Positions 3,915-31,094 of a stretch of DNA of 31,094 bases are shown one piece after another; the first letter of the stretch is position 1; each line of letters opens with the position of its first letter. A program made the position numbers and the translations under genes. The stretch covers positions 1 through 31,094 of IMG/VR virus record IMGVR_UViG_3300037488_001120. One strand, given 5' to 3'. Under the pieces are notes generated by a model. The model worked only from the letters and a program-made list of their open reading frames with translations, ran no database searches and had not been told where the DNA came from. The stretch comes from a virus.

Positions 3915-3922
3915 CCCTCTCC

Positions 3923-15501: not shown

Positions 15502-15779
15502 ACCGAGACGGCAAATTTAAGGATGAGATTGCGGGCGGTCTCAAAGTTGTCAGTCCAATGGGCTGCGCAGCCTGATGCTCGCAGCTCTTCCAGTTCACGC
15601 TCTTGCAGCTTGGTGGGCTTCTTGCCGAGGCGTTTCAGTTCAAGGAAGAGGGCGCGACCATGGTAGAGGATGATGCGGTCGGGCACTCCACGATGGGCAG
15701 GGGAAGAGAACTTGTAGGTGAGAAGCTTATACTCTCGGCAGAACTCCACCACTTTGCGCTCTAATTGGGCCTCGGTCAT
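15498..15779 (-). CDS. VRR-NUC domain nuclease
   Basis: A 93-residue protein of the usual size for stand-alone phage VRR-NUC enzymes, which belong to the PD-(D/E)XK superfamily and cut branched DNA. The catalytic pattern is visible: Glu3 and Glu7 at the N-terminus, RGVPD at 30-34, ELK at 47-49 and Gln59. The start is set at 15779 because a GGAG lies about 10 bases upstream on the coding strand and because the longer open frame (to 15953) overlaps another small gene in a different frame. The ATG overlaps that small gene's TGA, and its own stop overlaps the helicase start. It likely resolves branched replication intermediates. Confidence 0.9.
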   Translation of the reverse strand: MTEAQLERKVVEFCREYKLLTYKFSSPAHRGVPDRIILYHGRALFLELKRLGKKPTKLQERELEELRASGCAAHWTDNFETARNLILKFAVSV

Positions 15780-15934
15780 GGCAGTTTTCTCCGTATGCCT
15801 TTTATCACCATGTTGACGTAGGGTGCGGACAGTCCAAACTTCTTGGCGATGGCCTTCTGATATCCCCGAGTAGGGTTTTGGGTGGCCAGTCGTCGGATCT
15901 CGTCGATGACGGAATCTGGGATGGTTGGTTTCAT
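15776..15934 (-). CDS. Small helix-turn-helix-like protein (52 residues)
   Basis: Found by reading the gap upstream of VRR-NUC. It starts at the ATG overlapping the upstream stop (15931-15934) and ends with a TGA overlapping the VRR-NUC ATG. Residues about 8-18 and 24-34 look like two helices, and LSAPYVNMVIKGIRR (35-49) looks like a recognition helix after a turn, as in small resolvase-type or Cro-like HTH proteins. The composition is basic. A DNA-binding role is inferred from fold resemblance only; it may regulate the replication operon or assist the nuclease. Confidence 0.7.
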   Translation of the reverse strand: MKPTIPDSVIDEIRRLATQNPTRGYQKAIAKKFGLSAPYVNMVIKGIRRKLP

Positions 15935-16203
15935 ATGTTGGTGACTTGGTCAATGCGGCGGAAGTAGCGTTGACGGTCCAGCTTGGCGAGACGGCCCATT
16001 AGGCGCACGATCAGGGAGTGGCGTTGCTTGCCCATGAGTTCCATGACGACGAGACGTTTGAGGTCGGGCTCATTGACGCTCCCCAACAGGAACAACTCAT
16101 GCAGTCGGTTCCATCCCCCGATGCAGGAGGACAGACGCTCGACGTCTTTGTCTTGAATTTCAACCGAGTCATCGAAGATCTGGTATTTGGTAGGTATTTT
16201 CAT
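15931..16203 (-). CDS. Small hypothetical protein in the replication operon (90 residues)
   Basis: No family recognised. The N-terminal half is acidic, and the C-terminal half is basic and helical (LKRLVVMELMGKQRHSLI, then RLMGRLAKLDRQRY). It is sandwiched between DNA polymerase and the small HTH-like gene, with 4-base overlaps on both sides, so it is translated with the replication proteins. A basic helical C-terminus would suit DNA or polymerase binding, but nothing in the sequence proves it. Confidence 0.68.
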   Translation of the reverse strand: MKIPTKYQIFDDSVEIQDKDVERLSSCIGGWNRLHELFLLGSVNEPDLKRLVVMELMGKQRHSLIVRLMGRLAKLDRQRYFRRIDQVTNI

Positions 16204-18167
16204 TTAGAATAATAGGGTGCGAAATGAGCCTCAACCTTGAGCGGCAAGCCGTCCGCCCATGGAGGCGAGGAGGCAAGGGCATTGGCGAAATCTTCTGGAG
16301 TTTGGTTGGGGAGTGAGACGGCCAACGCTTGGTCGTGGATCAAGGCGAACGGCAGCATCCACCTCGACTCCGCTACCCTCGCGCCATTGGACATGATGTC
16401 GGCTGCGATTGCTTGGCAAATGTTCTCGAATAGTTTTGCCCCATAAAGCTTCACTCTGCCCCATTGAGTAGAGCCAGAGATGGCACCCCAGTAGGTGAAC
16501 TGGGTACCAAACTTGGGGTCTGGCTGCATTAGCGGGTTGGGGTAGGCCAGCCTGCGACCGGAGGGCAAGCGGACAAAGAGGTAGGGACGTCCAGCAGTCG
16601 TCTCCTTCCAGACTTGGATCATGCCCCCATCTCCAGCGAGGAAAGCTGACCGACCTTCCACGGCGTATCTCATGGCCCGATCTAAAGCTTTCCAACATGA
16701 GACCATCTTCATGTGACTGTCTCGGAAAGCGTTCTTGGCGTCCTCGGCCACTTCGTCGGTGAGGGTTATGCCGTACAGGTCTCGGCAGGAACTCTGGAAT
16801 TTCTCCGTCCCCATGCCGTAGCCCAGCCCGAGGATCGCCCGCTTGCCTACCTCGCGCTGGTCCTTGGTGACTTGTGCGACTGGGACTGAGTAGATCCCTG
16901 CCGCCATGGTCAGGTAGCGGTCCACGCCACGACGATACTCGTCCAAGGCGACGGTCTCACCGGATACCCAGCAGGCGATGCGTGCCTCGATGGCATTGTA
17001 GTCCCCGTCCAACAACTGGTTCCCAGATGATTGGATGAACTGCCGAATGCAGGAGGAGAGTACCTCGATGGGCTCGCCATAGACTGCACGCAGACCCTCC
17101 GCCGTACCTCCCTTGGCGATGTAGGCAAAGGCATCGGCTACGATGGGGCGCATCTCCTTGGAGGGCTTCTTGGCGTTCTGCACTTGAGGACCGCCAGCAG
17201 TCCAACGTCCGGTGCCTGCGCCGTAGAACTTGAAGACTCCATGGAGCCGGTCATCGGGGCAGACCCAGTTCAACATGGCGGTGATCTTCTTGGTCGCAGC
17301 GTATGACAGTTGGCAGTACAGCTCCAGCACTCGACGGATGGAAGGAGCCACGGCTTGATGGGCAAGGGCCGTCTGCAACGTATCGCCCTGCATGTCGTCG
17401 AGGGCCAACCCCCCTGCCTGCAACAGCGCGAGGATCTTGGCACGCTGGGTGATGTTGAGCTTGGTCAACTGGAGAAACTCCGCCCCAGCCTCTGTCTCCA
17501 CCTCGGTGATAATGCGCTGCGCGTTTTGCAGGGCGGGTACGTTGACGGGTACTCCGGTGTCGTTGAGGCGGAGCGTGAATTGGAACGTGTCCAGATTGGT
17601 ACCGACCAAACTGAAACGAGTTTTCAGGATGTTGTGAATCTCCTTCTCCGCACGCACGTCTTGGCGGCAGTACTCACAGAACTGAGCCCACTTCTCACGG
17701 TTGTCGCGGGGCTCGTTGAAGGTGCCGTCCTCCTGTGGGATTGAGAAGAACTTGATGAGGTCTTTGCCCAGCTTGTCCTTCTTGTTGGGGATGTTGAGAG
17801 CCTCACCGCATTTCTCCAGTGACTCGGGCAGCGCGGCGATGCGTGCCATGGCCTGCGTGCAACGCCATTTGTCGAGGGTGATCTCGGGCAGCATTCGGGT
17901 GCCGCTGCAAATAGCCTGCTCAAAGGGCGCGTTGTGGGCATGGACCTCAGTCGCGGCACGAACCATGGGCAGGGCTTCGATGTCCGAGACCACGCCCGCG
18001 TCTTCAAACTTGGGGTTGATCCACAGGTAGACAGGCGCGTGTTCGTCTCCGAGGTCGGAGACCGCCGCCATGAATACCTCAGTGGATGGATCGCAGCCGT
18101 AGCGGTGAGCCCCCACGGATGGCAGGTCTGCACGGCTACGGGTCTCGAAATCTAGGCATACTTTCAT
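16200..18167 (-). CDS. Family-A DNA polymerase with 3'-5' exonuclease domain
   Basis: At 655 residues it has the size of phage family-A replicative polymerases that lack the 5'-3' exonuclease. Exo motifs are present: LDFET (residues 5-9), HNAPFEQ (Exo II-like, with Glu where Asp is usual) and YCRQD (Exo III). Polymerase motif A is DYNAIEAR (about 386-393), motif B is KRAILGLGYGMG (about 442-453), and motif C is IHDQ (about 610-613), where most family members have HDE. The metal-binding Asp is kept. It is the centre of the replication set, followed by overlapping small genes, VRR-NUC and helicase. The ATG stands 11 bases after an intergenic hairpin and lacks a clear Shine-Dalgarno sequence. 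Confidence 0.93.
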   Translation of the reverse strand: MKVCLDFETRSRADLPSVGAHRYGCDPSTEVFMAAVSDLGDEHAPVYLWINPKFEDAGVVSDIEALPMVRAATEVHAHNAPFEQAICSGTRMLPEITLDKWRCTQAMARIAALPESLEKCGEALNIPNKKDKLGKDLIKFFSIPQEDGTFNEPRDNREKWAQFCEYCRQDVRAEKEIHNILKTRFSLVGTNLDTFQFTLRLNDTGVPVNVPALQNAQRIITEVETEAGAEFLQLTKLNITQRAKILALLQAGGLALDDMQGDTLQTALAHQAVAPSIRRVLELYCQLSYAATKKITAMLNWVCPDDRLHGVFKFYGAGTGRWTAGGPQVQNAKKPSKEMRPIVADAFAYIAKGGTAEGLRAVYGEPIEVLSSCIRQFIQSSGNQLLDGDYNAIEARIACWVSGETVALDEYRRGVDRYLTMAAGIYSVPVAQVTKDQREVGKRAILGLGYGMGTEKFQSSCRDLYGITLTDEVAEDAKNAFRDSHMKMVSCWKALDRAMRYAVEGRSAFLAGDGGMIQVWKETTAGRPYLFVRLPSGRRLAYPNPLMQPDPKFGTQFTYWGAISGSTQWGRVKLYGAKLFENICQAIAADIMSNGARVAESRWMLPFALIHDQALAVSLPNQTPEDFANALASSPPWADGLPLKVEAHFAPYYSK

Positions 18168-18398: not shown

Positions 18399-18932
18399 TC
18401 AAAGGACGTCGTCGTCGGAGATGACGCTGAACTCCTGCTCGATGTCGATTGGTGCCTCGCCGAAGGTCGCGCCGTCCTTGTAGAACTGCACGCAGCGGAG
18501 CTTGGCGTTGATGCGCTTCCCATACTGGTTGTCCTGTCCCCAGATTTGGATGGTGGCGTTGATGTAGCAGCCCGCGTAGGGCTTGCCGTCCTCCTCGGTA
18601 AGGGGCGCAAGGTCACGACCCACCACCTGAGGACGCTTGTCGCTGCGTGCCGAGATGAACATGACGCCGTCGCCATACCCGTCGGTGTCCGACTTCTCCG
18701 CGCCGTCGCGAAGGCAGGTCTTGGTGGGGGCCTTACCCTTGAAGTCGGTCGCTACGACCGAGGCGATAGCAGCTTTGACGGCAGCGATATCGCGGGCGTT
18801 GACCTTCTTGTCGAGGATCAGCGCGGCTGAGAACGAACCCTTGGCATCCGTCGGCGCGAACTTGCGGGCGGAGAACAGGGACGGGAACGAAAGCCGCACG
18901 TTGGTGAGCTTGACATTAGTATTAGTATCCAT
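18399..18932 (-). CDS. DUF2815 family ssDNA-binding-type protein
   Basis: A 177-residue protein that I recognise as the DUF2815 family from the opening LTNVRLSFPSLF, the GSFSAALILDK strand, the central GYINA-like box (YAGCYINATIQIWGQDN), GKRINAKLRCVQFYKDG, and an acidic C-terminal tail (SVISDDDVL). Members are thought to be phage ssDNA-binding proteins of the OB-fold gp2.5 kind, and the acidic tail would suit contacts with polymerase or nuclease partners. It lies between DUF2800 (2-base gap) and DNA polymerase, the common arrangement for this set. Confidence 0.9.
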   Translation of the reverse strand: MDTNTNVKLTNVRLSFPSLFSARKFAPTDAKGSFSAALILDKKVNARDIAAVKAAIASVVATDFKGKAPTKTCLRDGAEKSDTDGYGDGVMFISARSDKRPQVVGRDLAPLTEEDGKPYAGCYINATIQIWGQDNQYGKRINAKLRCVQFYKDGATFGEAPIDIEQEFSVISDDDVL

Positions 18933-18934
18933 GG

Positions 18935-20071
18935 TTATATTACGTCGAGGTTATCGAACGTGGTTTCTAGCAGTAGTGCCGGACGCGGGTCGGTTTCAGC
19001 GACCAACGTAGGTTTCCCTTCCGGCTTTGTTATGAGCGAGCGAAGGCGCGTCTGGAAACGCTCCGACAACTCTTTGTTTTTGAGAGCTTGTTCCGCCTTG
19101 TGGGGCGAAATGAGGTCTGCTCTCGGCCTCGTAATATCTAGCGGGAGGTGTCGGGATAGTAGCTTCTGGGCGGCGTCGGTGTCCGACCACGCGCGGTTGC
19201 TCTTGCCCGTGACCAGCTTGAACCCCTGCGGGTCTGCGCCAGCCATTAACTCCGAAACCTCTTGGTCTTCGACTGCTTCCAGCCAGCCGATGAGAACCTT
19301 CTTGGCGGCCAAGACTTTGACCCGCTCGGAGCGGGGGAGTGTGCTTGCCTCTGGCAACTCGATGACCCTCGCTGCCTCGGGCAGTGCGACCAGACCTTGG
19401 TTTGCGTAGGCAGAGCAGAGCCCTTTGGCTTTGCAGAACCGACACCCCTTGTCCGAGACCTTGAACACTCCGTTGCCCGACATGACCTCAGCCGCCTGCC
19501 CCTCGATCCATCCAGCCAGCTCCGCCAACTCACGACGAGTCAGCACCCATGTGCGGACAGGTTCTGGGTTGTTGCGATCACGGGGCTGGTAGATGGTGAG
19601 GTGAATGGGATGGTCAGGCTTGAACGAGACCGCTTGCTCCCACTGGCGGACGATTGACTCGCCATAGATGGCGAGCTGCTCGTTGTCCTGTGCATCCACC
19701 GACACCCCGACCCCGTACTTGAGGTCGTCGATGTAGATGGCGTCAGGCGTGGAGCTGGCCGCGTCGATGATGCCGTTGCGATCAGGCATGTAGAACAGGG
19801 GCAGCTTGGTCTCCACCGCCAGCTTGCCACCGTGGGACTGGACGTGGGCGACGTAGCCGTTGACGTAGCCGACAAGCTCGTCCGACAGACCCGTTGGGAT
19901 GGGCTGGTTGAGGAGGATGTTGGCGGCTACGGCGTGGGCGAGAGTGCCCTCGTCGGCATAGCTTGTCCGGTCCGATGGCAGGTCCGCCTCATGGTCGAGG
20001 ATGAACTGCGGCGATGCGGTGCAGACCGTCCACCGATGGGCCGACGATGCCCCGACGTCGATCTTACCCAT
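18935..20071 (-). CDS. DUF2800 family Cas4/RecB-like nuclease
   Basis: A 378-residue PD-(D/E)XK protein. It opens with SSAHRW.VCTASP (Cys17), followed by DEGTLAHAVA (His46), GIIDAAS and DDLKYGVGV (the Asp...Asp-x-Lys catalytic series), then QLAIYG. A three-Cys cluster GCRFCKAKGLC lies at about 208-218; with Cys17 it gives the one-plus-three arrangement of Fe-S nucleases such as Cas4 and AddB. Such proteins probably process DNA ends for phage recombination or replication, acting with the DUF2815 ssDNA-binding protein downstream. All catalytic positions appear intact. The ATG lies inside the end of the 130-residue gene (8-base overlap). Confidence 0.9.
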   Translation of the reverse strand: MGKIDVGASSAHRWTVCTASPQFILDHEADLPSDRTSYADEGTLAHAVAANILLNQPIPTGLSDELVGYVNGYVAHVQSHGGKLAVETKLPLFYMPDRNGIIDAASSTPDAIYIDDLKYGVGVSVDAQDNEQLAIYGESIVRQWEQAVSFKPDHPIHLTIYQPRDRNNPEPVRTWVLTRRELAELAGWIEGQAAEVMSGNGVFKVSDKGCRFCKAKGLCSAYANQGLVALPEAARVIELPEASTLPRSERVKVLAAKKVLIGWLEAVEDQEVSELMAGADPQGFKLVTGKSNRAWSDTDAAQKLLSRHLPLDITRPRADLISPHKAEQALKNKELSERFQTRLRSLITKPEGKPTLVAETDPRPALLLETTFDNLDVI

Positions 20072-20823: not shown

Positions 20824-23259
20824 TTAGAAAAGATCCAGTCGGGCCTGCGCGTGACCGAGGGTAGTGGCCAAGGGTTCTTCCCGCGTTGTCCACAGGGAGT
20901 GACGTTCGCCGCTGAGGATCTGCCGCCCGAGGTCGGTGAACCCCTTGTCTCTCAGGATGCCTGACAACCCTTGGTCGGTGAAGGCGGGCAGTCGGTGAGA
21001 GGGCAGGGCTTGGCGCAGCTCGGTCAAGGACACGATGTCACGTCGCACCAGTGGAGTCGGCTCGTCTTCCAAGGCTTCGGCCACGGCACGGGCGAGGGGC
21101 GAGGCCGTCTGCTTGGCGAGGGCTCCAAGGAACGGGGTGACGGGTGCCCGACCCTCGGGCTTGAACGAAGGGGAGATCTTCCAGTTCTCGAAGAAGTGTC
21201 GCAGCCCGCCCGCGTTGGCCGCGAAGGTGGAATACATCCGCTCGAAGTAGTCGGCACCCAGCTTGGCGATACTGGCCGCGTCCTTGAGGGGGCTGTTGAT
21301 GACCCAGTAGCGACGGTCTTCACCATGCACCGCGAGTGCGTCGAAGTGGTTAGTGAAGATGATGTAGTTCGTGTTGTTGGGGGCCGTCACCACAGGCTCG
21401 TAGAGCTGGCGCACCGAGACGAAGTCGTCAGAGATGAGCGGCTTAACTTTGTCGGCCACACCGTGCCTGTTCACCCCTACGTTGTGGGCCTCGTCGATGA
21501 CGCTGAGTTGGTAGCCCACTGCCCATCCGTTGTGAGTGCTGCCCAAGACATGCTCGGCGGCGAGCCGTTGCACGTTGGAGTTGCCGAGCACAAGGGTCGC
21601 GACGTAGGCGGCGAGACCTTTGCCACCACCCATGGCCGACTGGATGATGGGTGCCCAGCGGATCTTCTTCCCTGAGAACTGAGCTTGGTAGGCCAGCCAG
21701 TCGGTGAGCGTTATCCAATAGTCTTTACCCATGAGGTTAATCGCATGCTCCTTCCAATGGTCACCCGCCAAGGCCGACTGACTGGCGTTGGGCGAGACGA
21801 ATGATGGGAAGTAGGTGTTGAGATAGGGCACTCCACCAGAGGAGAACAGACGCCGCTTCTCTGACGGTTCGTAGCGCAGGTTCTCCACGACGGGTATGCC
21901 CACGTCGTGGACGAGGTATTGTCGGGCCATCTGAGTGGGGTCGGGGCTGCGATAGATGAGATCCACCACGTCGCCCCGCATTTTACGACGGTCAAGGTAG
22001 CGGTAAAACAGGTTGGGAGCAGTGAGGAAGGCGATGCCCACTGTCCATGGCGGGGCACTACTGGCGGCACGGTTGGCAGTCTGGGTCAGACGCTGCACCT
22101 CACGCGACAGGTCTTGCACGGTTGGCCCGCGCAAGCCACGGGCCTTGGTCGCAGAGTGGAGATCAGAGAGGAGGACTTTGCGCTCGATGGCTCCGATCAT
22201 TGTATCTAATTTAGCGATACGTTTGCCACCTTGGTCGAGCAGTTCTTCCGATGAGCGTTGGTCTGACTTGATCCATTCGCGAGTGGTCTCGAAGAGGCGA
22301 GAGGTGAGGGCGCGATTGTCCCAGCCGTTCTCAGTAGCGGCGTGGATAACACTGCGAATGGTGACGGGCACGCGCCCCGCTGGAGAAACCGCAAAAGAGT
22401 CCCAGCGTTTCTCCAACTCCTCTCGGCTGGGGTATTTGTTAGAGGTAGAAGACCACTCGTCCCATAGGGCAAGACCAGCGGGGCCAAACTGATGCTTGAG
22501 ACCCATGCCAATTTCAACCCATGCCTGCATTGAACAGGAGGCGTCGAGCTTGGTGAGGGCTTCGGTAATTTCCTCGATGGTGATGTCATCCACGGGGGCA
22601 CGGAGGTACTCGATGTCGCCCACGTCGGCGTCCTCAGGCGGGGCGGGTGGGCGCAGGTTGTCGAGTGCGGCGAGGGTAGCGTGATCGAAGGAGGTGCCCT
22701 TGGGGTTGTCGTAGACCACGGGCGTGGCAGTGTCGCCGATGTATTGCACGGGTGCATACATGGGTTGTACTGCGACCTTGGATTCGTGGGTGACCGAACG
22801 CATGCCGAGCAGTCCAGCCAGTGCGGTGACTGCGCGGGAGTACTGGGGTACTGGTAGGTCTTCGGTGGATACCATGATGCGGAGGCGTGGCTTGTCGGGG
22901 GTCGAGCGAGCGGTGTGCCAGACCACGGCGGCGAGATCCCCCAGCAGGGTGGAGGGGCCGACGTCTAGGATGCGCTGCGCCTCTACTCCATCGTCGATGT
23001 CAACGAACAACAGGTTGCAGTGAGTCGCGGCGTCGGTCTGGCGGGGTGATGGGTCGGTCTTGAAGACGGCGGGCACAAGGTAGGTGGTGCGCTTGGCTTC
23101 GTTCTGCGCCTTGTCGGGCAGTGCGAACATGGCTGCGCGTGTAAGGGGTATGGATACGGGATGCCCGATGAACTGCTCGACCAGTTCGTCGAAGGTGGTG
23201 GCCGTCGTCCCTTGGACTACGCCCATCTTGGTTCCCGAGAAATAGCGTGCGGTACTCAT
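20824..23259 (-). CDS. Primase-helicase (AEP-like primase, PriCT-2-like domain, D5/VirE-like ATPase)
   Basis: An 811-residue fusion. The N-terminal part resembles archaeo-eukaryotic-type primases: LLFVDIDDG (acidic metal site, about 84-92) and KPRLRIMVST. Residues about 228-310 (ITEALTKLDASCSMQ, WVEIGMGLKHQFG, LWDEWSS) match the primase C-terminal 2 pattern. The C-terminal part is an SF3/D5-like ATPase with GGGKG (Walker A, about 540), LSVIDEAHN (Walker B, about 587), a DFVSVRQLYEP box and NYIIFTNHFDA (sensor). It should synthesise primers and unwind the template for the family-A polymerase. The start is the ATG at 23259, since a GGAGG stands 5 bases upstream; the GTG two codons earlier lies inside that GGAGG. 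Confidence 0.9.
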   Translation of the reverse strand: MSTARYFSGTKMGVVQGTTATTFDELVEQFIGHPVSIPLTRAAMFALPDKAQNEAKRTTYLVPAVFKTDPSPRQTDAATHCNLLFVDIDDGVEAQRILDVGPSTLLGDLAAVVWHTARSTPDKPRLRIMVSTEDLPVPQYSRAVTALAGLLGMRSVTHESKVAVQPMYAPVQYIGDTATPVVYDNPKGTSFDHATLAALDNLRPPAPPEDADVGDIEYLRAPVDDITIEEITEALTKLDASCSMQAWVEIGMGLKHQFGPAGLALWDEWSSTSNKYPSREELEKRWDSFAVSPAGRVPVTIRSVIHAATENGWDNRALTSRLFETTREWIKSDQRSSEELLDQGGKRIAKLDTMIGAIERKVLLSDLHSATKARGLRGPTVQDLSREVQRLTQTANRAASSAPPWTVGIAFLTAPNLFYRYLDRRKMRGDVVDLIYRSPDPTQMARQYLVHDVGIPVVENLRYEPSEKRRLFSSGGVPYLNTYFPSFVSPNASQSALAGDHWKEHAINLMGKDYWITLTDWLAYQAQFSGKKIRWAPIIQSAMGGGKGLAAYVATLVLGNSNVQRLAAEHVLGSTHNGWAVGYQLSVIDEAHNVGVNRHGVADKVKPLISDDFVSVRQLYEPVVTAPNNTNYIIFTNHFDALAVHGEDRRYWVINSPLKDAASIAKLGADYFERMYSTFAANAGGLRHFFENWKISPSFKPEGRAPVTPFLGALAKQTASPLARAVAEALEDEPTPLVRRDIVSLTELRQALPSHRLPAFTDQGLSGILRDKGFTDLGRQILSGERHSLWTTREEPLATTLGHAQARLDLF

Positions 23260-23393
23260 AGCCACCTCCGTTTGCGTGCCTCTGCTAGGCTCTTGGCTCG
23301 GCGGATTCTTTCTTTCAGGGTCAGGGTCTTCGGCGTCCCCTTGGAACGTCGTCCCATGGCTGCGGCCATTTGTGAGAGTGTCATTTTTTTCAT
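23256..23393 (-). CDS. Tiny basic protein (45 residues) coupled to the primase-helicase
   Basis: Too short for usual gene calls. It starts MKKMTLSQMAAAMG, which could be a short helix, and continues as a very basic helix (LKERIRRAKSLAEARKRRW). The stop TGA overlaps the primase-helicase ATG, and its last codons contain the GGAGG used by that gene. It could be a nucleic-acid-binding partner of the primase or mainly a translation leader peptide. No family recognised. Confidence 0.6.
   Translation of the reverse strand: MKKMTLSQMAAAMGRRSKGTPKTLTLKERIRRAKSLAEARKRRWL
23265..23269 (-). promoter_or_regulatory. Shine-Dalgarno GGAGG that sets the primase-helicase start
   Basis: GGAGG on the - strand, 5 bases before the ATG at 23259. 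It overlaps the alternative GTG at 23263-23265, ruling that start out. It lies inside the end of the tiny basic gene, whose TGA overlaps the primase ATG. Confidence 0.8.
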
Positions 23394-23467: not shown

Positions 23468-23785
23468 TCAGGACGGGACGACGGGCGAAGGCGAGGTTGT
23501 AGTTATCATGGCAAGTGCGACGAGCGGGTCGTCGGTGATGAGGGGGTAGTTGCCGTCGACGTAGCCATAGCCATAGCCATAGCCGTTGCCGTAGCCGTGG
23601 CCATTGCCGTCGCCGTCGCCGTAGCCATAGCCGTCGCCGTAGCCGTAGCCGTCGACGTAGCCATAGCCATAGCCGTTGCCGTCGACGTAGCCATAGCCAT
23701 AGCCGTTGCCGTCGCCGTAGCCGTCGCCGTAGCCGTCGCCGTAGCCGTGGCCGTGGCCGTGGCCGTCCGTCCGCAGTGTGGTCAT
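23468..23785 (-). CDS. GYD-1: Gly-Tyr/Asp/Asn/His repeat protein
   Basis: A 105-residue protein. After MTTLRTD it consists of about 70 residues alternating Gly with Tyr, Asp, Asn or His, with four GYVDG breaks, and then the tail NYPLITDDPLVAL. The repeat is a hexanucleotide GGC-NAC in which essentially only the first base of the second codon changes. Unlike its two paralogues, the tail does not end in LQH.SP but runs into AMITTTSPSPVVPS, which resembles the start of the third paralogue. No membrane segment or enzyme motif. Alternating Gly/Tyr/Asp would suit a disordered or phase-separating chain, or metal binding; both are guesses. ATGA overlap with GYD-2 upstream. Confidence 0.65.
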   Translation of the reverse strand: MTTLRTDGHGHGHGYGDGYGDGYGDGNGYGYGYVDGNGYGYGYVDGYGYGDGYGYGDGDGNGHGYGNGYGYGYGYVDGNYPLITDDPLVALAMITTTSPSPVVPS

Positions 23786-24076
23786 GGTGAGACGTGTTGT
23801 AGTGCGACGAGCGGGTCGTCAGTGATGAGGGGGTAGATCTCGAAGCCCTCGCCATAGCCGCTGCCGTCGCCGTCGCCGTAGCCGTAGCCGTAGCCGTAGC
23901 CGTAGCCGTCGCCGTCGCCGTAGCCGTAGCCGTCGCCGTTGCCGTAGCCGTAGCCGTCGCCGTAGCCGTCGCCGTAGCCGTCGCCGTCGCCGTTGCCGTT
24001 GCCGTAGCCGTCGCCGTCGCCGTAGCCGTAGCCTTGGCCGTCGCCGTAGCCGTAGCCGTCGCCGTAGCCTTGGCCA
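23550..24076 (-). repeat. Hexanucleotide arrays (GGC-NAC) inside GYD-1 and GYD-2
   Basis: On the + strand these read as runs of GCCGTA, GCCGTC, GCCGTT and GCCGTG (about 23556-23763 and 23848-24075), interrupted by GYD-2's tail and GYD-1's start. Units are mixed rather than pure, so simple slippage alone does not explain the order. Long open frames on both strands here are consequences of the repeat. Confidence 0.9.
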
Positions 24077-24102
24077 TCGTCGTCTGTCAGTAGTGTGGTC
24101 AC
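23782..24102 (-). CDS. GYD-2: Gly-Tyr/Asp repeat protein
   Basis: A 106-residue paralogue of GYD-1. It begins at a GTG (TTLLTDDDGQGYG) with no alternative ATG in frame before a TAG. About 80 residues of GYGDG-type repeats are followed by the tail IYPLITDDPLVALQHVSP. The conserved tail and the matching TTL.TD start show that the reading frame is selected, even though other frames through the repeat are also open. Stop and GYD-1 start overlap (ATGA). A perfect 12-bp hairpin stands just upstream. Confidence 0.65.
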   Translation of the reverse strand: MTTLLTDDDGQGYGDGYGYGDGQGYGYGDGDGYGNGNGDGDGYGDGYGDGYGYGNGDGYGYGDGDGYGYGYGYGYGDGDGSGYGEGFEIYPLITDDPLVALQHVSP

Positions 24103-24147: not shown

Positions 24148-24402
24148 TCACTTCCATCCAGTCGCGGAGGCGGGGAGGGCGAAGATCAGTCGTGCCTTGG
24201 GCACGATGAGCACGCCCACGGGGTCAGCCGCTGTCTCCTTGGTCGGGCCCTTCGTGATCTGGCCGAGGCCAGCGGTGGTGCCCCACTTGCGGAGCTGCTT
24301 GGTGTGTTGAACGAGGAGGGTGTCCTCCACTAGGGTAACGTCGCCGACAAAGACGAAGCCATTGTCGAGCGCGAGGATATGCCAGCCATTGATGTTTTTC
24401 AT
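24148..24402 (-). CDS. Small conserved phage protein, RKWGTTAGLGQ family
   Basis: An 84-residue protein with a recognisable pattern: INGWHILALDNGFVFVGDV at the N-terminus, LRKWGTTAGLGQITKGPTKET in the middle and a hydrophobic VPKARLIFAL strand near the end. I recall many short phage and metagenomic proteins with the same WGTT..GLG..GPT layout and no known function; this is memory, not a search. The ATG overlaps the stop of the upstream gene (ATGA). Confidence 0.78.
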   Translation of the reverse strand: MKNINGWHILALDNGFVFVGDVTLVEDTLLVQHTKQLRKWGTTAGLGQITKGPTKETAADPVGVLIVPKARLIFALPASATGWK

Positions 24403-24968
24403 TTTGTGATGAGCCCTTCGGCCTTTAGGTAGTTGAGGAGTTTGGTGATCTTGTTGCGTTGCTCGTCGAGCGAGAGTGGTGTGAGATTGCTGGTGATGTG
24501 GCTCCCTATGGAGTGGGGAATTAGGAACCCGACCAATGCGCCCGTCTCGTAGTCGGTTCGTGCCGATACGAGGTCGGGGTGGAGGCTAGTGGCCTCCGCA
24601 AATGCCGCCTGTTGGCGATCCTTTTTGAGCCTGCGTTCATGGTCACGCTGGCAGTTCTTGGCCGCGAGGTCGGTCAGCTTGAAGGTCGCCGCCATGTCCC
24701 ACTTGAATATCTTTTTCTCCCAGTTGGGTTGGGCGGTGTCGATGGTGACGGAACGTATGGTGTCGCCGCCGATGGCGTCGTAGTGGTCGCAGCCGAGGAC
24801 GATCTTGGTGTCGTGGACGAAGTATCGTCCAGCCCTGACCGCCCGAAAGTACTTCGAGTTCTCGGTGGTGGAGCGGATGCGGGCATCTTGGCGTAGGTTT
24901 TGGTCGACGTTTTCAGGCGACCAACCGAGTCTTACGAATAGCTGTTGCACGTTGATTGGAATAGTCAT
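24399..24968 (-). CDS. Hypothetical protein (189 residues)
   Basis: The start is set at the ATG overlapping the upstream stop (24965-24968), giving a protein beginning MTIPINVQQLFVRLGWSP; the open frame extends further but only as a shadow of the upstream gene. The middle has YFRAVRAGRYFVHDTKIVLG and DAIGGDTIRSVTID, strand-rich. The stretch CQRDHERRLKKDRQQAAFAEA is a basic helix, and the C-terminus is helical (QRNKITKLLNYLKAEGL). No family recognised. It belongs to the early chain between small unknown genes. Confidence 0.65.
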   Translation of the reverse strand: MTIPINVQQLFVRLGWSPENVDQNLRQDARIRSTTENSKYFRAVRAGRYFVHDTKIVLGCDHYDAIGGDTIRSVTIDTAQPNWEKKIFKWDMAATFKLTDLAAKNCQRDHERRLKKDRQQAAFAEATSLHPDLVSARTDYETGALVGFLIPHSIGSHITSNLTPLSLDEQRNKITKLLNYLKAEGLITK

Positions 24969-25219
24969 TTTGAGAATACTTTCTGAGGTTGGCATTGAGT
25001 GGTGGTCGAGGCGACCGACCAGAGGGTGTCTTCGAGGATGAAGAAGGGGTGCATGACCCCTCCGGATTGAACCACCTTCCACCCGTTCCGATGGGAGAGG
25101 AGGGTGGGCGGGGTGGTGCTGTCGTCCCACTTTAAGTGGGGCAGATTGACGATGCGGCGGTTGCCGTTGATGGTCTTGCAGACCTTAGCCTTGGGTGGGA
25201 TGTAGTGCGTGGTTATCAT
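24965..25219 (-). CDS. Hypothetical protein (84 residues)
   Basis: The start is the ATG overlapping the GYD-3 stop (25216-25219); the longer open frame upstream is an Arg/Leu-rich shadow of the GYD-3 repeat. It contains INGNRRIVNLPHLKWDD and LLSHRNGWKVVQSGG, with FFILEDTLWSV near the C-terminus, and is probably a small beta-rich domain. No family recognised. Its MITTHY start resembles that of GYD-3 (MITTTT), hinting that the junction sequence was copied along with the GYD genes. Confidence 0.62.
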   Translation of the reverse strand: MITTHYIPPKAKVCKTINGNRRIVNLPHLKWDDSTTPPTLLSHRNGWKVVQSGGVMHPFFILEDTLWSVASTTTQCQPQKVFSK

Positions 25220-25500
25220 GGGGAGATGTGTTGCAGTGCGACGAGTGCGTCGTCGCAGGTGAGGAAGTTGCCGTGGTCGTCGCCGTAGCCGCTGCCGTCG
25301 CCGTCGCCGCTGCCGTAGCCGTTGTAGCCATCGTAGCCGTCGGTGTAATGGTAGCTGTGCTCGTCGGCGTAGCCGTCGCCGCTGCTGCCATGGCCGTAGC
25401 CGTAGCCCCAGCCGTAGCCTCTGCATCCGTTGCCATCCCCGACGCCGAGGCCGTCGCCGTCGCCGTCGTCATAGTTGGTGAATGTTGTGGTGGTTATCAT
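25216..25500 (-). CDS. GYD-3: degenerate Gly-Tyr/Asp repeat protein
   Basis: A 94-residue paralogue. The start is taken at 25500 (MITTTTFTNYDDGDGDG); the longer frame runs back into the VWA gene and is Arg/Gly-rich shadow. The Gly-alternating stretch is more varied than in GYD-1/2 (GCRGYGWGYGYGHGSSGDGY, DEHSYHYTDGYDGYNGYG), suggesting it is the oldest copy. The tail GNFLTCDDALVALQHISP matches GYD-2's tail. It is the first gene after the VWA-metallopeptidase, behind an intergenic hairpin. Confidence 0.65.
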   Translation of the reverse strand: MITTTTFTNYDDGDGDGLGVGDGNGCRGYGWGYGYGHGSSGDGYADEHSYHYTDGYDGYNGYGSGDGDGSGYGDDHGNFLTCDDALVALQHISP

Positions 25501-25546: not shown

Positions 25547-26875
25547 TCACTCGACCGCGATGGTCCGCCCGATGGGCATGGGGGCCGTCCGCCCGCCACA
25601 GACTCCCCAGAGCACGGGGTAGTCTGTCTCTGTCACGCTCACGTCGCCGTCGCCGTCGGTCAGATAGACCAGACCCGCGATGTGCTCGCCGCCTTCAATC
25701 AACTGCGCCACCCGTGCGAACACGGGGTCGAACGAGGTGCCGCCTCCGCCCTTGGCATCCAGCGGTGCCTCGTCGCCGTGGCCGACGCGGTACTCGGCGC
25801 AGATCTCGGTGTCGCAGTCGATCACGATAGCCTCGCAGCCTACCTCTGCACAGAGGAGGTTGATCTGTGCCGTGAACTCGGCGCACAGAGTGCGGTCGAT
25901 GCTGCCCGAGGTGTCGCGACCGACCACCAGCAGGCCGATGCCGTCCCGCTTGCGGCGGGGGTAGATGACAGGTGCGAGAGCCATGCGTCGGGCCGACCGC
26001 GACCAGTCATTGCGCGTGGAGATTGCTGACCGCACGAAGTCCGCCGTCTCCTGTCGCCAATCGACCTTTGCCGTGGCCGTCAGTCGGTCAAGCTCGGCTT
26101 GCAGATTGGCCGACACCGTGCCCCGCCCTGCCTGCCTGCGTGCCATGTCGGCACCGATCAGGGCGCGTTCCCACTTCTCCTTCAACGTGGGCGGCGGGGT
26201 CTTGCCCAGTGCGGCGGGTGGCGGTGCCGTGGGGGTGATGAAGGTGCCGCATCCGCCGACGTCGGGCTGGCCGTTGGGGTCGGGCTGGGGTTGGCCCTGC
26301 TGGGGTTGGCCCTGACCCTGCTGGGGTTGGCCCTGCTGGGGTTGGCCCTGACCCTGCTGGGGTTGGCCCTGACCCTGACCCTGCTGGGGTTGGCCCTGAC
26401 CCTGACCCTGCTGGGGTTGGCCCTGACCCTGACCCTGCTGGGGTTGGCCCTGACCCTGCTGGGGCTTGGGTTGCTTGCGGATGGCGGTGAGGATCTCCTC
26501 CTCCGCCATGTCGTCATAGCGTTGGTCACGCAGGCCGCCCTTGGGCATGGTGATGCCTGCGATCTTCTCAAGGGTGGCGTTGATTGCGTAGTCGCCTGCG
26601 ACGTTGCCCTCCTCCGTGTGGGGCAGGCGGTCGAAGTGATTGTGGGCACAGTGCAGGGTTTCGTGGAGGAGGACGAACCGCACCTCCTGCTCGGTCAGGG
26701 TGGCGACCCATGTCGGGTTCCAGAGGATGCGCGTGCCGTCGGTGGCGGCGGTGGGGATGGACTCGTCGATGACGTCGGTGAGGTTGCCCGCCAAGCTGCC
26801 ATAGAAAGCAGCGGTGGGGGTGGTGAGTGCCCAGTAGCGGGCGCGGTCGATGGCGATGGGTGTGTCGAGTTTCAT
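25547..26875 (-). CDS. HExxH metallopeptidase-like / VWA protein (DUF2201-type)
   Basis: A 442-residue protein in three parts. The N-terminal domain carries LLHETLHCAHNH (His71, Glu72, His75, His80), a zinc-metallopeptidase motif as in the DUF2201 N-terminal domain. Residues about 136-198 are a flexible linker of Gln-Gly-Pro repeats. The C-terminal domain is VWA-like, with the MIDAS motif DTSGS at about 319-323, GGGGTSFDPVF and LVYLTDGDGDV. Proteins of this kind pair with MoxR AAA+ ATPases; here the ATPase gene is two genes upstream. The pair probably remodels or matures a protein target. The ATG overlaps the 260-residue gene's stop. Confidence 0.88.
   Translation of the reverse strand: MKLDTPIAIDRARYWALTTPTAAFYGSLAGNLTDVIDESIPTAATDGTRILWNPTWVATLTEQEVRFVLLHETLHCAHNHFDRLPHTEEGNVAGDYAINATLEKIAGITMPKGGLRDQRYDDMAEEEILTAIRKQPKPQQGQGQPQQGQGQGQPQQGQGQGQPQQGQGQGQPQQGQGQPQQGQPQQGQGQPQQGQPQPDPNGQPDVGGCGTFITPTAPPPAALGKTPPPTLKEKWERALIGADMARRQAGRGTVSANLQAELDRLTATAKVDWRQETADFVRSAISTRNDWSRSARRMALAPVIYPRRKRDGIGLLVVGRDTSGSIDRTLCAEFTAQINLLCAEVGCEAIVIDCDTEICAEYRVGHGDEAPLDAKGGGGTSFDPVFARVAQLIEGGEHIAGLVYLTDGDGDVSVTETDYPVLWGVCGGRTAPMPIGRTIAVE
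26283..26470 (-). repeat. In-frame Gln/Gly/Pro linker repeat in the VWA protein
   Basis: Alternating 15- and 21-base units (on the + strand CCCTGCTGGGGTTGG with or without an extra CCCTGA) encode QPQQGQ and GQGQ blocks. Unit order varies, so the linker length can change in frame. The + strand is G-rich with repeated GGGGTTGG. Confidence 0.88.
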
Positions 26876-27654
26876 AGGGAAAAGAGGGAGCAGATCTCGT
26901 CGGCTCGGGAGGCAGTGTTGGCGCGGGCGATGGGGTCGTCGCGCAGGGTCTCGGCGTCGTGTTCGACGAGGTCGCCCGCTTGGCGGGCAAGGTCGGCGAT
27001 GACTGGGTCGTCGGCGAGGTTGAGGTCGGGGACAAGGGCGAGGATCTCGGTCAGGTTGCTGACGAGGGTGTCTCGGAAGATTGCCTTGGGATCGCGCAGC
27101 TTGACGGCGACCTTGCGGATCGCGTCGGACAGGCGGTCACGCAACTCCTCCTGAGCGCAGGCCGACGCCTCAGCGAACCACTCGGCCCACTGCCCCACGT
27201 CGGGCACGGGGAGGTAGCGGGTGGTGAAGGAGAACTTGGATGCGACCACGTTGTGGGTCGGCCAGTGGGCGGCGACGTAAAGACCGTTGAGTCTCGCTGG
27301 CGCGTCGGTGCGGACGGTGTCATAGTCGGCGAGGAAGATCGTCACCAACTGTTGGATACGCGACCCGAAATCCTTCATGATTTCGCTGTGCTCGAACTGA
27401 CGAGCGGCGGGCAAGAGGCGAAGCCCTTTGTCGGCGCAGGGGAGGGTGAGTCGGTAGTGTTCAAGCCGTGCCTGCGAATGCAGCTCGGCGATGGATTCGA
27501 GGGCGTGGTGGGCGCAGATCTTTACGTCGACGCGGGCCTCGTTGGTGAGACCGTGTCGAGCGTTCTCGACTGCGGTCTCGGCGGCGTGGCGTTTGACGAC
27601 GCGCCATGCGCCGACGTTGAGGACTGCGATAACTGCTCGGGAGCTGAGTTTCAT
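26872..27654 (-). CDS. Conserved partner protein between MoxR and VWA genes (260 residues)
   Basis: Not firmly recognised. It is helical with an aromatic central box (LNGLYVAAHWPTHN, SKFSFTTRYLPVPDVGQWAEWF) and a C-terminal FRDTLVSNLTEILALVPDLNL stretch. In other phages a protein of this size and look (DUF3150-like, as I recall) lies between the ATPase and the VWA gene, so it is likely part of the same complex. The ATG at 27654 follows a conserved leader (CGTAACAACAAAACCAATAC). The stop overlaps the VWA start by 4 bases. The family link is tentative. Confidence 0.68.
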   Translation of the reverse strand: MKLSSRAVIAVLNVGAWRVVKRHAAETAVENARHGLTNEARVDVKICAHHALESIAELHSQARLEHYRLTLPCADKGLRLLPAARQFEHSEIMKDFGSRIQQLVTIFLADYDTVRTDAPARLNGLYVAAHWPTHNVVASKFSFTTRYLPVPDVGQWAEWFAEASACAQEELRDRLSDAIRKVAVKLRDPKAIFRDTLVSNLTEILALVPDLNLADDPVIADLARQAGDLVEHDAETLRDDPIARANTASRADEICSLFSL

Positions 27655-27655
27655 A

Positions 27656-27678
27656 TGTGTATTGGTTTTGTTGTTACG
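27656..27678 (-). promoter_or_regulatory. Conserved 5' leader motif
   Basis: On the + strand TGTGTATTGGTTTT-GT-TGTTACG. It matches 30231-30253 at 20 of 23 positions, and a shorter form (TGTGTATT...TGTTACG) occurs at 20456-20485. On the coding strand it lies directly before the ATG at 27654. It could be an A-rich translation-enhancing leader or a protein site. Confidence 0.5.
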
Positions 27679-27694
27679 ATGCGAGAACTGATTA

Positions 27695-27721
27695 GACTCC
27701 CCTCGTCCGACGAGGGGAGTC
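27695..27721 (-). promoter_or_regulatory. Intergenic hairpin after the MoxR ATPase gene
   Basis: Perfect 13-base arms GACTCCCCTCGTC/GACGAGGGGAGTC around one base, so about 11 bp of stem. It lies 14 bases after the MoxR stop and 40 bases before the next ATG. No T-run follows (TAATCAG). Confidence 0.78.
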
Positions 27722-27735
27722 CGGTGAGGTCTCGG

Positions 27736-28779
27736 TCAGGTGGTGGAGGTCGCGAACAGGGCGGAGTTCTTCACCCACCACTTCTGCCACTCGGCATTGG
27801 CGACGAGCTTGGCACCGAGGCGGGCGAAGGCGTCTTTCGCGCAGTAGGCACCCATCACTCGCGGGAGGCGGTCAATGTAAGTGACGAGCTGGGCGGCATA
27901 CTTGGCTTCGACTGCCCGACCCAGCATGGTCGCGATGAGGTATTGCGCGGCGGGATCGGTCGGCACTGGTGCCCCATGCGGGTCCATCCACACCTGTTGT
28001 GGGGTGGGGAGTTGGTCGGCGAGTTGAGCGAAGGCCAAGAACTCAGCGGCTGCACCCTTGCCAATGGCTGCGGCCACGCTGTCGAAGTCCCGCAACCCTG
28101 CGTCCCAGAGGCGACCGACCACCGCCCATGAGCGGAAGTCCGCCATGCGAAGGGCGGGGTCGGCGGAGGGCTTCCACTGGTACAGGCTGCGCCCCGTGGT
28201 GGAGCGGTGCCATGCCACGATCTCAGGGGCGAACCCCTGCTCCGAGGCCCACCGTGTCCAGCTATCCACCTCCTCTCTCCAGCTGGAGAGGATGGTGGGG
28301 CCGTCGGCCTTGGCCTCGGTGGTCGGGGTGGCGACGGAGAACGCGACGTGGAACCGACTGCGGAGTGGTTCGCAAAGGGCCGACACCCCAGCCTTGTCGG
28401 CGGGGCGGTTGGTGGCACCCCAGATCAGGACGAAGGGCGAGAGCGCACCGTCGTCGAACAGTGCCATGATGGACGCTTGCACGTCCATTGGTGCTTGGCC
28501 GAGGTCGTCGAGGAACAGGAGCGTGGGCACCTTGGCGGTGCGGAGTTGCAGGAGCAACTCCAGCGGGAGGGCACGGGTCACGCCCGCCGCAAGGTCGGGG
28601 ACGTAGCAACCGCCGAGGTCGACTCGCTCGGCGAGGGATGCGCGGAAGACGACGACCTTGTAACCTGCGTCGGTCGCGGCTTCGATGATGCGGGCAGTCT
28701 TGCCAGTCCCGGGCGGGCCGACGAGGAGGACGCGCAGTTTGGCGCGGAGATAAGAGGCGAGGCGTTGTGCTGAGTTCAT
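27736..28779 (-). CDS. MoxR-type AAA+ ATPase
   Basis: A 347-residue ATPase with GPPGTGKT (Walker A, 21-28), FLDDLGQAP (Walker B, 89-97), WGATNRP (sensor 1, 120-126) and EPLRSRF (Arg finger region, 137-143). The C-terminal half (about 150-347) is a helical lid-type extension with TTGRSLYQWKPSADP and DFRSWAVVGR. MoxR ATPases act as chaperones with VWA-domain partners; the partner here is the HExxH/VWA protein two genes downstream. AGGA stands about 7 bases before the ATG. A long hairpin lies in its leader. Confidence 0.9.
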   Translation of the reverse strand: MNSAQRLASYLRAKLRVLLVGPPGTGKTARIIEAATDAGYKVVVFRASLAERVDLGGCYVPDLAAGVTRALPLELLLQLRTAKVPTLLFLDDLGQAPMDVQASIMALFDDGALSPFVLIWGATNRPADKAGVSALCEPLRSRFHVAFSVATPTTEAKADGPTILSSWREEVDSWTRWASEQGFAPEIVAWHRSTTGRSLYQWKPSADPALRMADFRSWAVVGRLWDAGLRDFDSVAAAIGKGAAAEFLAFAQLADQLPTPQQVWMDPHGAPVPTDPAAQYLIATMLGRAVEAKYAAQLVTYIDRLPRVMGAYCAKDAFARLGAKLVANAEWQKWWVKNSALFATSTT

Positions 28780-29803: not shown

Positions 29804-30260
29804 CTGAGTGTTCCTGCCCGAGGGTCCTCCGCGTCGGTTAGGATCGTGGTTTCGTCGGGCGATGCACGGCTGGCGGGGGATGACCAGTGTGTCCCTCGGT
29901 GCGCTGGTTGGAGCGCGGTTGCCGAGGGCAGCTATTACGGCCATGTGAAGGGCCGAGGCGGGGGAGATAGGCCAGTCGGGCGGAGTTACCCACCCCGTCG
30001 GCCACTTCCTTTACGCTTGGCTCACCATCCCCCATCGCGACTTAGCGCGACTTTCGGAGCCCTTGGAGCGGGAGTGAGGGGGGAAGCGTTTGGTTCGTCG
30101 AACCGCTCGCTTTCTACCGTCCTCGCTGCCACTGACAACAAGCTGGAACAGATATTACCGTGTTACAAGTACATAATCTGTACTTATGTGTAAGTCGTTG
30201 CCGCGCAGGCAATTAAAGTTTTTCCATTCGTGCGTATTGGTTTTACTGTTACGGTTTGCG
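29804..30260 (+). other. Non-coding stretch, probable control region
   Basis: No convincing gene on either strand: the open frames are short and Pro/Arg/Ser-rich. It holds an AT-rich island (about 30150-30190) with the palindrome AAGTACA-TAATC-TGTACTT (30167-30185) and a copy of the leader motif (30231-30253). It is the expected place for the leftward early promoter, but I could not identify convincing -35 and -10 boxes. Confidence 0.5.
30167..30185 (+). promoter_or_regulatory. AT-rich palindrome, possible operator
   Basis: AAGTACA and TGTACTT arms (7 bp) around TAATC, in the AT-rich island upstream of the - strand arm. TAAGTCGTTG follows at 30191-30200 and recurs after the other palindrome near 30715. 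Confidence 0.45.
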
Positions 30261-30380
30261 GTGCTGGGGTGCTGGGGTGCTGGGGTGCTGGGGTGCTGGG
30301 GTGCTGGGGTGCTGGGGTGCTGGGGTGATGCGGCGATGCGGTGATGTGGTGATGCGGTGATGTGGTGATGCGGTGATGCG
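30261..30380 (+). repeat. Octamer array I: GTGCTGGG x8, then GTGATGCG-type x7
   Basis: Eight perfect GTGCTGGG units (30261-30324) pass in the same 8-base register into seven GTGATGCG/GTGATGTG/GCGATGCG units. All fit GTGNTGNG with two variable positions. The first block has G4 runs every 8 bases and should be able to form G-quadruplex DNA. Confidence 0.92.
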
Positions 30381-30768
30381 GGCCTGATCCGTCGCCCTAT
30401 TAACTAGTGGCGAGGTGGGGTGTGTAAAGTGATGCGTAATAACGACTTAGGATGAAATCGTTTCTAAGGGGCATTGCGTGCCATTCTCGGGGGGTCGGGC
30501 GGCTTGAGGCGGTATGGGTAGCGGGTTGCAGTGTCATAAATGCGTAAGTCTGTGATGGGTGAATGAGTTAGGTGGGTTTCGGTGAAGTGACGGAATCTGT
30601 TTAATCGGGGGCTTAAAAGGGCAGGAAACACCGACGCTAAGGTGTTGCACCGCACGGAGTTCTGTAACTACGTTGCGTAAGTCTCTGCGATGCAAGGTGG
30701 TTATGTAAGTTACATAAGTCGTTGGTGTTGTGGGTTTCGGTGGTGTCCTGCGGTGTCGGGGCGGTTTT
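30381..30768 (+). other. Non-coding stretch between arrays
   Basis: No supported gene. It contains TGCGTAAGT at 30541 and 30674, a 17-base palindrome TTATGTAA-G-TTACATAA at 30701-30717, and scattered short G-rich words. A 63-codon open frame on the - strand (30464-30655) has no ribosome site and unbiased composition, and I do not call it. Confidence 0.5.
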
Positions 30769-30997
30769 GGGATCGGGATCGGGATCGGGATCGGGATCGG
30801 GATCGGGATCGGGATCGGGATCGGGATCGGGGTGCTGCGGTGCTGGGGTGCTGGGGTGCTGCGGTGCTGCGGTTGCGTAAGTGCTGGGGTGCTGGGGTGC
30901 TGGGGTTGCGTAAGTGCTGGGGTTGCGTAAGTGCTGGGGTGCTGGGGTGCTGGGGTGCTGGGGTGCTGCGGTGCTGCGGTGCTGGGGTTGCGTAAGT
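30541..30997 (+). repeat. Iteron-like element TGCGTAAGT, six exact copies
   Basis: Exact copies at 30541, 30674, 30874, 30907, 30924 and 30989, all in the same direction. Near-copies include GTGTAAGT near 30188 and ATGTAAGT inside the palindrome at 30701. The last four are embedded between octamer units. Repeated direct sites of 9 bases are typical of initiator or regulator binding sites; the protein is unknown. Confidence 0.7.
30769..30828 (+). repeat. GGGATC hexamer, ten perfect copies
   Basis: Ten uninterrupted GGGATC units followed by GGGG. It contains ten GATC sites at 6-base spacing, and three-G runs with 3-base loops, which can form G-quadruplexes. The apparent coding of alternating Asp-Arg in this stretch is a by-product. 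Confidence 0.97.
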
Positions 30998-31094
30998 GCT
31001 GCGGTGCTGCGGTGCTGCGGTGCTGCGGTGCTGCGGTGCTGCGGTGCTGCGGTGCTGCGGTGCTGCGGTGCTGCGGTGCTGCGGTGCTGCGGTG
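30829..31094 (+). repeat. Octamer array II: GTGCTGGG/GTGCTGCG, runs to the window end
   Basis: Mixed GTGCTGGG and GTGCTGCG units, broken four times by a GTTGCGTAA insert. It ends in twelve perfect GTGCTGCG units from 30996 to the last base. Probably longer in the real genome. Confidence 0.92.

Follow-up and report, generated by a model that had tools for sequence, protein, structure and literature searches.

We describe a group of three genes in a viral DNA sequence of 31,094 bases (IMG/VR record IMGVR_UViG_3300037488_001120, positions 1 to 31,094; this whole stretch is called the window) which have probably been selected to stay together. In order of transcription on the minus strand, they encode a MoxR-type AAA+ ATPase, a partner protein that appears to be a distant relative of DUF3150, and a DUF2201 protein that joins an HExxH metallopeptidase domain to a VWA domain, hereafter the VWA protein. 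The explanation that we favour, with modest confidence, is that the three genes specify a single remodelling or peptidase machine that is expressed together with the replication genes. The open reading frames (ORFs) of the module agree with those given in a preliminary description of this DNA that was made from the sequence alone:

27736-28779, minus strand: MoxR-type AAA+ ATPase, 347 amino acids (Pfam AAA/AAA_5, phrog_1297)
26872-27654, minus strand: partner, 260 amino acids, putative distant DUF3150 relative (viral relatives, predicted fold)
25547-26875, minus strand: DUF2201 protein, 442 amino acids, HExxH metallopeptidase and VWA domains (Pfam, conserved residues)
26872-26875, minus strand: overlap of the partner stop and the VWA start by 4 base pairs (bp), from the coordinates; translational coupling is possible

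The evidence for a common function is that the genes remain linked in many viral loci. A scan of viral contigs seeded with the partner gave 159 relatives, from which 80 loci were kept (loci are cited by L numbers where necessary). Many of these are closely related, and they contribute 15 rows to the non-redundant set used below. Conserved adjacency outside the window's genome, the absence of which had been set beforehand in the preliminary description as a refutation, is found throughout these loci. Wherever the contig leaves room, MoxR is upstream of the partner (66 of 66), VWA is downstream (73 of 73) and both genes flank it (59 of 59), with zero matches for MoxR, partner or VWA on the opposite strand. 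Because these loci had been selected by the partner, a survey from the VWA side was added. The best 80 of at least 567 relatives yielded 79 loci, of which 75 were new and 48 of those uncut. The partner is encoded in 34 of the 48 uncut loci, in three gene orders: MoxR-partner-VWA (20 loci), partner-MoxR-VWA (11) and MoxR-VWA-partner (3). The remaining loci have MoxR and VWA only (13) or VWA alone (1). The partner is present in 28 of 41 uncut loci once redundancy is removed, and in 32 of 46 when L091, L092 and L125, which lie on contigs from prior scans, are excluded. A non-iterated profile also matches all 52 partner hits of the 75 loci, the weakest at 7e-18.

The linkage extends to strand and persists through rearrangement. 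Without any strand filter, the 138 partner hits within 4.5 kilobases (kb) and the 164 MoxR hits within 6.5 kb are all on the VWA strand; this count used 171 of the 176 loci with VWA hits, omitting four whose VWA hits cover less than 80% of the model, L153 among them, and also L001, which is part of the window. When 87 non-redundant VWA proteins are placed in a quickly built maximum-likelihood tree, the presence of the partner changes at least 8 times, and the combined states of order and presence change at least 13 times, compared with a mean of 38 after shuffling. The tree has only Shimodaira-Hasegawa-like approximate likelihood-ratio test (SH-aLRT) support and contains seven long end branches, and 81 of its 87 rows were counted, six cut loci without a visible partner being omitted. 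Since repeated reordering, gain or loss leaves the genes linked, it seems probable from these comparisons that they are selected to stay together. Linkage that survives reordering is good evidence that the products would act as one three-part machine.

The MoxR protein matches Pfam AAA (7e-8) and AAA_5 (1e-5), as well as the PHROG ATPase family phrog_1297 (3e-43). Its Walker A motif GPPGTGKT (K27), Walker B residue D91, sensor N124 and Arg-finger candidate R142 are invariant among 34 aligned MoxR sequences. The second Walker B acid is usually E; in the window it is D92. With Walker A and B, sensor 1 and an Arg-finger candidate, the protein belongs among the AAA+ proteins, and the MoxR/midasin branch is closest. 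Chains of midasin, itself part of the MoxR branch, head the matches of the MoxR profile in the PDB (4e-26), other AAA+ proteins following at 5e-9 or weaker.

The VWA protein matches Pfam DUF2201_N (PF13203, ‘Putative metallopeptidase domain’, 8e-27) and DUF2201 (PF09967, ‘VWA-like domain’, 4e-15), both past the curated cut-offs. An N-terminal HExxH is followed by a linker of repeats rich in Q, G and P (approximately residues 140-210), which has a predicted local distance difference test (pLDDT) value below 50 in the model, and by a C-terminal VWA domain with a full metal ion-dependent adhesion site (MIDAS). The C-terminal part of the model fits VWA domains (best Z 12.9, 2.4 Å, 131 residues), and this part dominates the structure matches. 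The HExxH residues (H71, E72, H75) and MIDAS residues (D321, S323, S325, T380, D407) are invariant in 42 aligned VWA sequences. Residues were also compared between the 57 rows of the 87-row non-redundant set that have the partner and the 24 uncut rows that lack it. H71, E72 and H75 are retained by every one of the 57 lineages that have the partner and by 23 of the 24 that lack it; D95, located 20 residues past H75, and the five MIDAS residues are kept in all 81, and H80 is kept in 77. Because the catalytic glutamate is kept, an active enzyme is favoured over a structural zinc site, and the protein is probably an active peptidase. Gluzincins are defined by HExxH plus a distal acidic third zinc ligand; we infer that D95 is a candidate for this ligand, and the protein has a weak match at the sequence level to MJ1213 (0.008). 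The reading of a MoxR and VWA/metallopeptidase module with intact Walker, Arg-finger, zinc and MIDAS motifs, already given in the preliminary description, is borne out by the ORFs, the Pfam matches and the invariant residues, D92 aside.

Two further observations concern this protein. The sole broken HExxH among the 81 lineages (EQxxH) is that of the VWA protein of L097, a two-gene locus. Members of phrog_1314, for example N4 gp25 (L089 4165-5307), are labelled ‘HNH endonuclease’ in many records. This PHROG and RefSeq label was rejected for the window member, which matches no HNH family in Pfam at E up to 1 and matches DUF2201_N and DUF2201 instead.

The AlphaFold2 model of the partner has a mean pLDDT of 92.6 and a predicted template modelling score (pTM) of 0.83. 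No PDB chain matched this model at E 0.001. Eight models in a viral predicted-structure library match it at E ≤0.001, the best being a phage ‘DUF3150 domain-containing protein’ (1e-15, TM 0.85). Pfam DUF3150 (PF11348) is matched by 6 of 38 aligned members of the partner family, at best with 6.4e-4, and not by the window protein at 0.01. On account of the fold match to a viral DUF3150 protein and the weak Pfam matches of the six members, the partner is predicted to be a distant DUF3150 relative. Across 57 lineages, one of its arginines, R244, is invariant. Matches from VIA-align reach Z 8.0 (3.5 Å, 91 residues) on the helical C-terminal half, which by the tool's own account may be just a common arrangement, and no family is claimed on this basis. 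The only relative in a genome collection is L088 (CAKZRW010000107.1), where MoxR, partner and VWA occur on a 7.4-kb contig binned to an actinobacterial metagenome-assembled genome; this is perhaps a phage contig. The scan used one exact peptide pattern, giving 9 matches and 1 relative, and distant cellular relatives would escape it.

A phage pair of MoxR and a metallopeptidase-VWA protein is already known, and the DUF3150-like third component is less known. In 2007, a phage was noted to carry a MoxR pair (PMC2147016). In 2021, a MoxR and metallopeptidase-vWA pair was reported in group 2.2 jumbo phages; the two domain architectures are identical to those of the module, but the available text mentions no third gene and proposes a role in virion assembly (PMC7824862). 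In archaeal virus ATV, p618 and p892 form a viral MoxR-VWA pair with a reported interaction, differing in that the virus is archaeal and p618 is in the virion; a peptidase or DUF3150 component is not mentioned in the available part of the report (PMC4124505). Genes gp24 and gp25 of N4 are two of the 14 core genes of N4-like phages and are found on middle transcripts (PMC4193335). These genes of the Schitoviridae core match the iterated module models at 2e-88 and 3e-92. As in the module, the gene for a MoxR-family ATPase precedes that for a DUF2201-type HExxH/VWA protein, and the replication genes lie downstream of both. In contrast to the window, N4 has no DUF3150 partner within the 30 kb fetched, and RefSeq names its gp25 ‘HNH endonuclease’.

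Among annotated phages, Planktothrix phage Pag-Yong1 has all three genes: UMO76053, UMO76051 and UMO76047 are MoxR, partner and VWA, arranged in this order on a single strand. It differs by small genes between the module genes and by a partner that is 28.7% identical. A gene annotated as anti-CRISPR AcrVA2 is situated two genes downstream of VWA in this phage (L090 12048-13088). We compared 13 annotated or public phage records, comprising N4, Pag-Yong1 and 11 that we picked from among the VWA hits so as to be diverse (Thermus phiFa, Bacillus phage G, Roseobacter CRP-7, Rhizobium RHph_TM27B, cyanophage S-TIM5, Vibrio SBP1, SonariX, MIJ3, SCTP-2, EcP1 and one uncultured 462-kb phage). MoxR and VWA are present in the fetched stretch of every one of the 13, and one of them, Pag-Yong1, carries the partner. 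The ‘complete three-gene module’ of the preliminary description has to be qualified in that the partner is missing from many phages, among them N4, which have a two-gene form. In the literature searched by title and start of abstract, most subscription papers being outside its coverage, we found no report of the three-gene phage form; for DUF3150, no paper was found in the literature searched. RavA-ViaA and further cellular MoxR-VWA pairs combine an AAA+ ring with a VWA co-chaperone, as in the module. To our knowledge, the VWA protein of these cellular pairs has no metallopeptidase domain and the pairs include no DUF3150 subunit.

It is fairly probable, in our assessment, that the proteins constitute a remodelling or processing machine in which the partner is a functional third subunit. 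Whether its client belongs to the replication stage or to host takeover is a proposition that we consider evenly balanced. The MoxR protein would form an AAA+ ring, as expected from its family, and the DUF2201 protein would dock on this ring through its VWA/MIDAS domain, presenting the zinc peptidase domain on a flexible linker. Linkage suggests that the DUF3150-like partner would be the third subunit, most likely an adaptor that recruits the client, or the client itself. ATP-driven remodelling would open a specific client of early infection, either a replication factor of the phage or a protein of the host. The zincin would cut the opened client; alternatively, docking may activate the zincin. 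A third subunit that remains linked through reordering would provide a handle on the client, and the kept catalytic residues predict proteolysis. The pair is part of the core of N4-like phages, and no report of its target or activity was found in the literature searched.

The genes around the module argue for a role at the replication stage in the window's lineage. In a random-order sample of 22 of the 56 eligible loci, the families most commonly matched by 146 flanking proteins are those of DNA polymerase, nucleotide-kinase-type proteins, exonuclease, primase, ParB and methyltransferase. These proteins matched 161 families in all; the 25 families listed, each with only 2-4 matching members, include none for heads or tails. 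Across 38 sources, the polymerase lies downstream on the module strand (17 of 17 ORFs) and the terminase lies on the other strand (all 20 ORFs, in 19 loci, identity checked for one member). Given that the module is surrounded by genes for replication and nucleotide functions and not by virion genes, virion assembly is disfavoured in this lineage. A downstream neighbour of approximately 211 amino acids is present in 19 of the 38 sources (L069 10190-10828 and relatives), and the member that was scanned has a match to Pfam Nmad5, a family associated with nucleotide modification, at 7e-4, which falls short of the curated cut-off. Downstream of the module, the window encodes the following features, with extra small genes interspersed among them on the minus strand. 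Matches for two of them were counted in 88 sources, namely 87 loci and the window.

25216-25500, minus strand: small GYD-rich protein with C-terminal motif DDALVALQHISP (sequence); a neighbour of the module, membership only putative
24399-25130, minus strand: gene without annotated function and with an uncertain start, which in the near clade lies 3' of the module (matches in 14 of 88 sources)
24148-24402, minus strand: gene of 84 amino acids, no assigned function (matches in 9 of 88 sources)
23782-24102, minus strand: second GYD-rich ORF, C-terminus DDPLVALQHVSP, inside a hexamer repeat array at 23552-24069 (ORF and repeat analysis)
20824-23265, minus strand (that of the module): primase-type protein with PriCT-2 and DUF5906 (Pfam, PHROG)
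18935-20071, minus strand: DUF2800 exonuclease (Pfam, PHROG)
18399-18932, minus strand: Gp2.5-like single-strand DNA-binding protein (phrog_112, 5e-40)
16200-18167, minus strand: family A DNA polymerase (Pfam, PHROG)
15498-15953, minus strand: endonuclease family phrog_93 (PHROG)
14188-15501, minus strand: SNF2-type helicase (Pfam, PHROG)

Several observations weigh against a three-part machine of the replication stage. The partner is absent from 14 of the 48 uncut VWA-seeded loci and from 12 of the 13 annotated records, over the stretches fetched; because many phages go without it, it would be dispensable to the MoxR-VWA pair. Annotated phage records rarely hold the partner, a protein search matching 3 of 50,697, all of one length. 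In the cut locus L153, which was omitted from the counts, the MoxR hit is on the other strand, 4.4 kb off. Divergence of the three proteins is correlated (Mantel 0.61-0.78, 54 loci), yet this is hardly specific, as 13 loci with a polymerase gave values of 0.75-0.83 among the three proteins versus 0.60-0.80 with the polymerase. What the gene context suggests is when the module acts, and not what it acts on. The pair of cyanophage S-TIM5 adjoins Hsp20 and is close to genes labelled virion structural.

This last arrangement also speaks for a role in virion assembly or maturation, whereby MoxR-VWA would assemble a tail or head part and the peptidase would trim structural proteins. Such an assembly role is the one proposed for the group 2.2 jumbo phages (PMC7824862). 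Virions of ATV contain the MoxR protein p618 as a major component, and p618 interacts strongly with the VWA protein p892 (PMC4124505), and four virion proteins of roseophage RPP1 are encoded near the homologues of gp24/25 (PMC4193335). We nevertheless judge this explanation unlikely: in the window's lineage, the module lies amid replication genes and opposite the terminase strand in all 20 ORFs, and the N4 gp24/25 transcripts are middle, not late (PMC4193335).

A special case of the machine that we favour is that it would dismantle a host defence or regulatory complex. The module is away from virion genes, Pag-Yong1 has its AcrVA2-annotated gene two genes downstream, and MoxR-VWA cores are found in bacterial conflict systems (PMC7159879). 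However, PADLOC gave only marginal P-loop matches (IetA, MkoA, mad8 and BrxF models) and the data point to no defence target. Counter-defence or host takeover of this kind is rather improbable.

The GYD proteins require separate consideration. Each is small and has variable repeats of glycine dipeptides (GY, GD, GN, GS), flanked by ends conserved within a phage; those of the window are encoded by hexamer repeats. Proteins of this type are found at 25216-25500 and 23552-24102 of the window and in L006, L003, L123, L181, L184, L225 and L252. They often occur as tandem copies; the copies of one phage have similar short motifs at the N- or C-terminus, and these motifs vary from phage to phage. In L180, a GYD-type repeat pattern at 1-80 is on the strand of, and inside, the VWA ORF at 3-653, where a linker role is possible. 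The ATG of the first GYD gene of the window is at 25500, 46 bp past the VWA stop. The preliminary description was thus right to place a GYD gene immediately downstream of the module, but the next GYD ORF is separated from it by two genes without GYD-rich products (25130-24399 and 24402-24148).

That description had also treated the GYD proteins as candidate interactors. In one scheme of this kind, the machine would unfold and cut the adjoining GYD proteins, whose conserved ends would be docking or cleavage sites. GYD genes are indeed 3' of VWA in several near relatives. They are interleaved with the module in L123, a distant relative (3051-8074), where five GYD ORFs with a common N-terminal motif close to LWPLFSSGYLATLD lie before, between and beside MoxR, partner and VWA; in L288, two GYD ORFs lie between partner and MoxR. 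Small GYD ORFs are present in 4 of 87 non-redundant module loci compared to 0 of 125 controls (Fisher 0.027), their ends are conserved and their repeats variable within a phage, and in cells, too, a zincin has been described together with small variable proteins (PMC7159879). Nevertheless, three of the four loci form one clade, and the near relatives L007, L008, L009, L083, L085 and L087 have no GYD. There is no GYD ORF in 83 of the 87 module lineages and no module in 141 of 148 GYD loci, the loci of both sets being partial. For a test from the GYD side, 201 viral loci obtained by GYD codon patterns were compared with 125 control loci obtained by arbitrary words; 148 of the 201 carry a small GYD ORF, the other 53 being omitted from this subset. 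MoxR or VWA is found at E 1e-10 in 8 of the 201 loci and in 2 of the 125 controls (Fisher 0.33), and in 7 of the 148 loci against the same 2 controls (Fisher 0.19), neither enrichment being significant. GYD has a RecE-like exonuclease family as a neighbour in 9 of the 148 loci and MoxR as a neighbour in 4.

As a general target, the GYD proteins are not supported, and we regard their processing by the machine as quite improbable. Similarly little credence is given to the fuller scheme of a three-subunit phage AAA+ protease-chaperone that would act at the replication stage with DUF3150 as client adaptor, its clients in some lineages being GYD microproteins with ends that serve as docking or cleavage tags. 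The association of GYD proteins with the module is real in places and may mean that both reside in early regions. Among the GYD neighbours, the ‘family’ with the most loci (75) looks by eye like an out-of-frame repeat and was set aside. One 59-kb contig, IMGVR_UViG_3300033148_009015, contains both the VWA-seeded L101 and the GYD-pattern locus L485, tens of kb apart.

NCBIfam contains CobS and CobT models, and the matches of the three proteins to this database at E 0.1 include no cobalt-chelatase model; the porphyrin family phrog_249 reaches 0.099 versus 3e-43 for phrog_1297, and the N-terminal domain retains HExxH and D95. It is thus highly improbable that the module is a cobalt-chelatase-like CobS/CobT pair, which would increase cobalamin by hijacking host CobN, even though a cobST reading has been proposed for archaeal tailed viruses and cyanophage cobT is usually annotated as a peptidase (PMC8651126).

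Elsewhere in the window, a plus-strand protein of 2377 amino acids is encoded at 3923-11056 and matches two PHROG families without assigned function. Both ends of the window contain short tandem repeats, at 1-227 (96-bp unit) and 30257-31094 (6- and 8-bp units), which makes it probable that the record is a fragment with repeats at its ends.

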